Below are positions 2,368 through 42,385 of a stretch of DNA of 64,000 nt, piece by piece. Below the pieces are notes generated by a model. That model worked only from the letters and a program-made list of their open reading frames with translations. It was not told the DNA's origin and did not search any database. The stretch is from Brevibacillus composti (GTDB lineage Bacteria > Bacillota > Bacilli > Brevibacillales > Brevibacillaceae), in the NCBI RefSeq assembly GCF_016406105.1, contig NZ_CP066308.1:2639501-2703500 (forward strand), read 5' to 3'. The position numbers and the translations under genes were made by a program. Each line of letters starts with the position of its first letter. Position 1 is the first letter of the stretch.

Positions 2368-3702
2368 CTATAAAAGGCCCAACGAGCTGATAAATACGAT
2401 GATAATTGCGAATGGGGCGACATACCGGAGCAACAGCAGCCATACCGCGAATGCCCGCCTTCCCCAATTTGTCGAGACCTGCAGTTCACGCATGAGCATC
2501 TCTCTTTTTAAGCGGAGCGGGACGAAGACGGCGATCAGAAAAGCGCCGACGGGCATCAGGATATTGCTGACCAAAAAGTCTGCCGCATCAAAGACCGATT
2601 TTCCCAGGATCGTCACCTCTGACCAGACACCGAAGGAGAGCGCAGAGGGAATCCCGAGGAGAAAGATCAGCAGCCCGACGATCCAGGAATACCGTTTGCG
2701 TCTGCGGGCCTCCCCTTTGGACAGAGAGGCGACGATGATCTCCAGCATCGAAAAGGCGGAGGTCAGTGTGGCGAACAAAAACAGGACCATAAACACCAGC
2801 AGGAACAGGCTGCCAAACGGAATGTGCTCAAATACGGAGGGCAGCATGATAAACAGCAGGCCCGGCCCGGCCGTCGGCTCCAATCCCAGGGAAAAGACCG
2901 CCGGGAAGATCGCCAGTCCGGCAAACAAGGAGACGAGCAGATTAAGCCCGACGATGGAGCCTGCAGAGCGGACCAGATTTTCCTGTTTGCCGAGGTAAGA
3001 GCTGTACGTCACCATGACCGAGACCCCGACACTGAGGGAAAAGAAGGACTGCCCCATCGCATATAAAATCGACTCGCCGGTCAGCTTGGAGAAATCCGGC
3101 ATGAGAAAAAAGGATACGCCCTGCAGCGCGCCGTCCAGCGTGAGGGAGCGCACCATCAGCACGAGAAACAGGAGGAACAGGGCCGGCATCAAATATTTGT
3201 TCGCCGCTTCGATTCCGGCCTGTACGCCGCGGGCCACGACCCAGATCGTGATCAGCATAAACAACAGCTGCGCGCCGACCGCTCCCAGCGGATTTGCGAT
3301 GACATTACCAAACAGCTGATCATAAGGCTGTCCCTTCATCTGTCCAGAGGCGCCAAGGAAAATATAGCTGAGAATCCAGCCGCCGACCACGCTGTAAAAG
3401 GACAAGAGCAAAAAGCAGGTGCAGACGCCCAGTCGGCCGATCCAATGCCAGGCGGTTCCCGGCGCGATCATCCGATAGGCAGAGACGGCTTCCCGCTGCG
3501 TGCTTCTCCCGATGATGAATTCGCCGAGCAGGAGCGGAAGGCCGATGGCGAGCGTAAAGAGCAGGAACAGAAGAAAAAATGCACCGCCCCCGCTGGTTCC
3601 GACCACATAGGGAAATTTCCAGATCGCCCCGAGGCCGATCGCGGATCCCGCTGCCGCCAGGATAAAGCCGAGCCGGGTTGTCCATTGTTCAGATTGCTTC
3701 AT
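2368..3702 (-). CDS. Neurotransmitter:sodium symporter family amino acid transporter
   Basis: A 444-residue, roughly 11-TM protein of the NSS/SNF family (LeuT fold, like B. subtilis YocR/YhdH). The N-terminal segment has the unwound TM1 signature [17 protein letters not shown], which binds Na+ and substrate, followed by GGGAFFLLF in TM2. The family couples amino acid uptake to Na+ influx. The leader upstream on the same strand is a T-box riboswitch, so expression should rise when a particular tRNA is uncharged. That supports an amino acid import role; see the T-box entry for the candidate amino acid. The ATG follows a GAGGTGGAATCAAC ribosome site. Confidence 0.9.
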
Positions 3703-3803: not shown

Positions 3804-4050
3804 AAAAAAACCCGTCCTGCAAAGGGACGAGTTGCTCGCGGTACCACCCTGTTTAGACAGCATGAAGTTCCAAGCTGTCTCACTTTTGTTCATTGGTAAC
3901 GGGAATGACCCGGTGATCCTCCTACTGATGCCAGGGACGTTCAGAGGACAGCTCCGGAGGGAATTCGACGGGGCGCACTTCAAAGCCGCTTTCAGTCCGT
4001 GGCGGCTTCTCCCTTTCAAGACGCTTCTCGTCTACTAGTCTCCATCAACG
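3804..4050 (-). ncRNA. T-box riboswitch leader of the NSS transporter
   Basis: Read on the minus strand, it shows the T-box bulge sequence GGGTGGTACCGCG (3849-3837). A terminator follows: CGTCC / GGACG, then a U7 run at 3810-3804. Stem I is recognisable: a GATG/CATC base, AGTA on the 5' side of the specifier loop, a GACG/CGTC helix above it, and GAA on the 3' side. The 3' strand reads GAA-TTC-C (3966-3960). The specifier is therefore UUC (Phe) if counted from the lower helix, or UCC (Ser) if counted one base after GAA as in the argS leader. The bulge base U pairs best with an A73 discriminator, which favours Phe. The conserved purine after the specifier is absent. Confidence 0.88.
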
Positions 4051-4078
4051 CTTTTAAAAAAATATTCCTACCTACTGT

Positions 4079-40014: not shown

Positions 40015-40185
40015 CAAAAAAAATCCTCTCCTGTGCAGAAGAGGATTTTGTCCGCGAATAGATTAAACGCCCGACACATCCTCTTATCTTTCAAAGCACA
40101 GGGCTTTGCTGGAATTGGCACCTGAAAAATCCGGTTGCCGAGGCTTCATTGGGCCAGTCCCTCTGCCTCTCTGGATAAGAGATGT
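40015..40185 (-). ncRNA. SAM-I (S-box) riboswitch of metH
   Basis: Minus-strand leader. P1 pairs CTCTTATC (near 40181) with GATAAGAG (40088-40081). Conserved core elements are AGAGAGGCAGAGGGACTGGC, CCAATGAAGCCTCGGCAACC and AGGTGCCAATTCCAGCAAA. A terminator follows: AAAATCCTCT / AGAGGATTTT (40050-40015), with a U-run. When SAM is abundant it should end transcription before metH. Confidence 0.97.
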
Positions 40186-42094: not shown

Positions 42095-42385
42095 GGAATG
42101 ACAGGGATCGATGATGAGGACAGTACTCCGCCTGACATGCCCAAGCGAGCCGGGGATGGTGAAAGCCCGGTGCAGGACGGCGACAGGAAGCGCACCTCGG
42201 AGATTGCAGACTGGACGGCCATGCGGACATTCCAAAATGGCAACAGGTCTGCCGGGACTGCCCGTTAGCGCAGAAAAAGCGGCGATGCTGCCGGGGAAAA
42301 TCGGGCAGCATGGCAAGAAGAGTGGCACCGCGGGAGCATACCTCTCGTCTCTTGTTCGTACGGAGACGCAGGGGTTTTTTATTTT
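42095..42385 (+). ncRNA. T-box riboswitch of argS, arginine specifier CGC
   Basis: Complete T-box leader. Stem I has a GAGG/CCTC lower helix, AGTA on the 5' side, and GAAG-CGC-A on the 3' side (specifier CGC at 42191-42193, Arg). The AG-bulge/distal-loop hairpin GAGCCGGG...CCCGGT follows. The antiterminator bulge AGTGGCACCGCGG is at 42321-42333. The terminator is CGTCTC / GGAGACG, then a T-run at 42375. The specifier agrees with the downstream arginyl-tRNA synthetase. Confidence 0.96.

Follow-up and report, generated by a model that had tools for sequence, protein, structure and literature searches.

In the Bacillus cereus group, an NSS transporter under the control of a Phe T-box has already been published, and Leu and Trp T-boxes were also reported on NSS paralogues (Wels et al. 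2008, PMC2494555, in the sections available to us). MhsT transports Phe, Tyr, Trp, Leu, Ile and Val (PMC9350835, excerpt). Literature on T-box riboswitches of Brevibacillus, available in part, yielded one paper, which concerns histidine. The available sections of the main text of a paper on contiguous riboswitches (PMC12452182) contain no Brevibacillus, phenylalanine, NSS or symporter, and no literature match joined T-box riboswitch and yocR. Here, we describe the leader of an NSS gene in a window of Brevibacillus composti DNA (the whole stretch analysed, 64,000 nucleotides) and compare it with its counterparts in the genus.

The leader and its transporter

The covariance model RF00230 matches the minus strand of the window at 3820-4057 with 111.1 bits (E 1e-23; curated gathering threshold 93), and the same leader was recovered again in a whole-genome search. 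Including its terminator the whole element spans about 3804-4057, and 117 nt separate the T-box from the start of a 444-aa NSS ORF. The earlier note had recognised a T-box here; the score, the element's own terminator and the NSS ORF downstream support this claim at the sequence level. The features are as follows.

2368..3702, minus strand: NSS (SLC6-type) transporter, MhsT-like, 444 aa (Pfam, NCBIfam, solved relative)
3820..4057, minus strand: T-box leader with Stem I, Stem II, F-box region, Stem III and antiterminator (RF00230)
3960..3966, minus strand: 3' strand of the specifier bulge, GAAUUCC (sequence; register from pheS and orthologues)
3963-3961, minus strand: codon read as UUC; the non-purine C after the codon is 3960
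4033..4039, minus strand: 5' strand of the specifier bulge, ACUAGUA, the same as in pheS
4040..4043, minus strand: 5' strand of the lower specifier helix, GGAG, pairing with CUCC at 3959-3956
3843..3846, minus strand: T-box bulge, UGGU, the complement of the tRNA-Phe ACCA end (A73)
3809..3833, minus strand: intrinsic terminator stem-loop followed by a U-run (folding and pattern scan)

The terminator at 3833-3809 folds with a minimum free energy of -11.6 kcal/mol (z -3.7), none of 200 shuffles folds as well, and by folding it overlaps the 3' half of the antiterminator. The S-turn strands AGUA and GAA are present with the codon one base above the lower helix, and the UGGN bulge, here UGGU, fits the discriminator base A73 of tRNA-Phe. 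When Stem I was folded by itself the canonical structure was not obtained, which counts against a Phe T-box. A sigma-70 promoter scan returned 1 match, with 0.9 expected by chance.

The transporter belongs to Pfam PF00209 (SNF/NSS; E 1.3e-54, 186.3 bits, cut-off 27) and matches NCBIfam NF037979. Its best solved relative is MhsT of Bacillus halodurans (PDB 4US3, E 2.2e-109), and this assignment to the MhsT group overturns the view that the transporter is unassignable without its leader. From a T-box one learns which amino acid governs expression, but not that it is the sole substrate. Together, leader and relatives name a likely substrate class for a transporter found in all 26 genomes searched. 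An Asn in TM1 at the Na1 site, Asn27 in LeuT, is common in PF00209, though not defining for the family. MhsT has Asn at this place, whereas the Brevibacillus transporter has Ala, as do all 26 orthologues of the genus (L025-L050) and homologues in Priestia, Bacillus and Aneurinibacillus. Asp263 of MhsT aligns with Asn in the Brevibacillus transporter (numbering from an excerpt of PMC10707687, matched to the alignment by us). The transporter may be coupled to sodium in a ratio other than 2 Na+ per substrate.

Our main reading, to which we assign a probability of about 0.94, is that the leader is a transcription-terminating T-box which reads tRNA-Phe through a UUC placed directly after the S-turn GAA, with readthrough allowing the MhsT-like importer to be made. 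The leader would have arisen from a pheS T-box and been tandem-duplicated in the genus, a single copy of the upstream lineage surviving here. We computed the T-box fold, the codon register, the discriminator match to tRNA-Phe, the terminator and the grouping with pheS leaders; from these we infer that the leader switches and in which direction it responds, in what order duplication and loss took place, and that phenylalanine is a substrate. Uncharged tRNA-Phe would accumulate, its anticodon GAA would pair with UUC and its ACCA end with the UGGU bulge. Both contacts would stabilise the antiterminator and RNA polymerase would then pass the terminator. The transporter made in this way would import phenylalanine and probably other hydrophobic amino acids too. 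Most likely, phenylalanine shortage would thereby lead to more of the amino-acid importer.

Distribution in the genus and the base after the codon

An NSS gene is present in all 26 Brevibacillus genomes searched, with only one in B. composti itself. Its leader carries a T-box in 23 of the 26, amounting to 37 elements with the window included, and in 14 of the 26 genomes two complete Phe T-boxes stand in tandem before the gene (L027, L030, L031, L034-L039, L041, L043, L047-L049). In contrast to this frequent tandem arrangement, pheS has one T-box motif per leader in at least 11 genomes. Three NSS genes (L045, L046, L050) are without a T-box, which counts against a Phe T-box reading. At these three loci the T-box has been lost, and a terminator-like tail with a T-box-like string (e.g. 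CACCGCGAG) lies shortly before the ORF.

A tree was built from the 37 NSS elements, 26 pheS elements and 14 other T-boxes of the B. composti genome. The NSS elements form one clade (support 0.997) and join the pheS elements in a Phe clade apart from the 14 others (0.786). Within it, the window copy clusters with the single copy of one genome (G021) and the upstream copy of another (G004), and it is therefore probably the survivor of a tandem pair, of the upstream lineage. By eye, no remnant of a second T-box was recognisable 3' of the window terminator. Outside the genus, a motif search allowing at most one mismatch, by which a weaker T-box could be missed, found no T-box motif at any of ten loci upstream of NSS homologues in Priestia, Bacillus, Salibacterium, Aneurinibacillus and two MAGs (L132-L141), and none at 9 of 12 NSS loci of another genus of the family (L127-L130, L142-L149). 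In that other genus, an NSS paralogue has a T-box reading CUC (Leu) in 3 of 5 genomes (L127-L129).

The base after the codon of the window element is C (3960), and the earlier note was right that the conserved purine is missing. Its description of the specifier as unusual holds as far as the non-purine is real, but C after the codon is common: it occurs in 23 of the 37 orthologous elements (the window and 22 of the 36 others) and in the thrS leader of the same genome (ACC-C). The other 14 NSS elements have A at this place, as do 26 of 26 pheS leaders, none of which has C. Sorted by copy, C is found in 13/14 upstream, 4/14 downstream and 6/9 single elements. Parsimony on the tree places A at the root and requires a minimum of five A/C changes. 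From the sequences, this repeated purine-to-C change would be a modest novelty of the NSS leaders.

According to the accessible part of a review (PMC7583486), the purine stacks under the codon-anticodon helix, and an A-to-U exchange abolished tRNA binding in B. subtilis glyQS; by this result, loss of the purine counts against the tRNA-Phe reading. The same source gives only a 2.4-fold cost for A-to-U in an ileS T-box, in which the codon-anticodon helix has the support of Stem II, describes glycine T-boxes as lacking Stem II, and notes that rC1400 occupies the equivalent place on the ribosome. Since the window element has Stem II, the ileS result leads us to expect that C at the purine place weakens binding and does not abolish it. 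Among the NSS elements, the three of 37 without Stem II (lower helix and CCGUUA 17-18 nt apart) all have A, while the 34 with Stem II divide into 11 with A and 23 with C. This is only a hint that loss of Stem II is linked to a kept purine, because the three elements lie near each other in the tree. The element of L032 and the upstream one of L048 had been scored by script as lacking Stem II; inspection by eye showed that both have Stem II and that it is their S-turn that is altered, and they were moved.

Tentatively, and at odds well short of even, the Phe T-boxes in which the purine repeatedly changed to C, mostly in the upstream tandem copy, may have a higher threshold for uncharged tRNA-Phe than pheS; Stem II would make the loss tolerable, and C would sit where rC1400 does on the ribosome. 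Variants with purine or C, with or without Stem II, single or in tandem, provide a ready-made series for testing the role of the purine. A different explanation is a degenerate T-box which, having lost both the purine and the second tandem copy, senses tRNA poorly and leaves the gene terminated or constitutive. The C in place of the purine fits this, as does the loss of the element in three genomes that kept only a terminator-like tail. We nevertheless regard it as very unlikely, since all other parts are intact in an element of 111 bits, the C variant recurs in 23 of the 37 elements, and Stem II, with which the ileS T-box paid so little for A-to-U, is present.

The reading frame of the specifier

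The specifier strand of the NSS leader reads GAAUUCC followed by CUCC, and by eye its frame is indeed ambiguous between UUC and UCC, as had been noted. The earlier note had fixed the register by the spacing after GAA in the window's second T-box, that of argS (42102-42355), and had correctly observed that the 3' strand of the NSS leader is one base shorter than that of argS (GAAGCGCA). The spacing differs among T-boxes of the same genome, being 0 or 1 nt, and therefore the argS register does not carry over. Of 24 T-box matches in the genome, 23 were placed by hand, knowing which gene each one regulates; they include two identical thrS rows, and the one not placed is the glyQ leader (L024). The codon follows GAA directly in six rows, namely the NSS leader, an aminotransferase leader, trpS, serS, leuS and pheS. 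One base intervenes in twelve (argS, tyrS, ileS, valS, metS, cysS, alaS, proB, three ilv leaders and the one before hisS), and five rows have no GAA at the S-turn place. Exactly one base separates the codon end from the lower helix in 23/23. The spacing from the S-turn GAA is thus not transferable between T-boxes, and the lower helix is the safer ruler.

Other regulatory elements were seen on the way. The T-box before hisS (L017) reads GAC (Asp) with a UGGC bulge, which suggests Asp control of the hisS-aspS genes, presumably an operon. Two tandem Ile (AUC) T-boxes, separated by about 420 bp, precede an ilvB-type gene of the same genome (L011, L015). A SAM riboswitch is located at 40081-40181 of the window (minus strand, 100.3 bits).

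The outermost pair of the lower helix is kept in all 63 NSS and pheS elements, as G-C in 37, A-U in 25 and G-U in one. This covariation fixes the edge of the bulge and thereby UUC with a single unpaired base. Measured from the same edge, the TBDB rule that the codon occupies bases 2-4 from the bulge end (PMC7778990, in the part available) also gives UUC. The frames GAA, AAU and AUU were rejected because the distance from their ends to the lower helix is not one base.

The pheS T-box of the same genome (L009) has the layout ACUAGUA / GAA-UUC-A / CUCU and the NSS leader ACUAGUA / GAA-UUC-C. Both share bulge lengths, UUC and UGGU, and differ in the base after the codon, A in pheS and C in the NSS leader. 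Across the genus, pheS leaders have UUC followed by A in 26/26, with a spacer base before UUC in three of them, which were read by eye. A comparison of orthologous leaders found UUC together with UGGU in 37/37 NSS elements from 23 genomes, the window included. That UGGU favours a tRNA with A73, and so Phe, agrees with the tRNA genes, where A73 is present in 2/2 for tRNA-Phe and G73 in 6/6 for tRNA-Ser; the serS leader has a UGGC bulge. UGGU could wobble-pair with G73, as in many Trp T-boxes (PMC7778990, same part), which counts against the Phe reading. The frame shifted by one base is UCC or UCA, and thus Ser, in all 37 NSS elements, so that codon conservation alone would not decide for Phe; the case is built on the evidence from pheS, the bulge and the ruler. 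By these comparisons, which settle the codon of an ambiguous leader, the specifier is UUC (Phe), and the computation supports Phe as the better of the two readings.

That the codon is instead UCC, in the argS register with one base between GAA and the codon, and with the transporter answering to tRNA-Ser, is hardly credible: argS and eleven other rows of the genome do have a one-base spacer and the shifted frame remains Ser across orthologues, but pheS leaders share the bases and layout of the NSS leader, the codon would lie directly against the lower helix, which it does in none of the 22 other placed T-boxes of the genome, the invariant UGGU would face the G73 of tRNA-Ser where serS itself has UGGC, and the tree places the element with pheS and not with serS.

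Comparison with known systems

A Phe T-box on an MhsT-like transporter is a known kind of control. The element of the Bacillus cereus group, as described in the available sections of Wels et al. (PMC2494555), concerns the same transporter family with the same Phe specificity. It was reported to be tyrS-derived, whereas the NSS elements studied here group with pheS leaders, and the two were therefore probably recruited separately. Unlike that element, the Brevibacillus NSS T-box frequently occurs as a tandem pair, and in many cases C stands where the purine would be. What is new in the Brevibacillus leaders is thus detail only, namely the apparent recruitment from pheS, the tandem duplication and the repeated change of the stacking purine to C.
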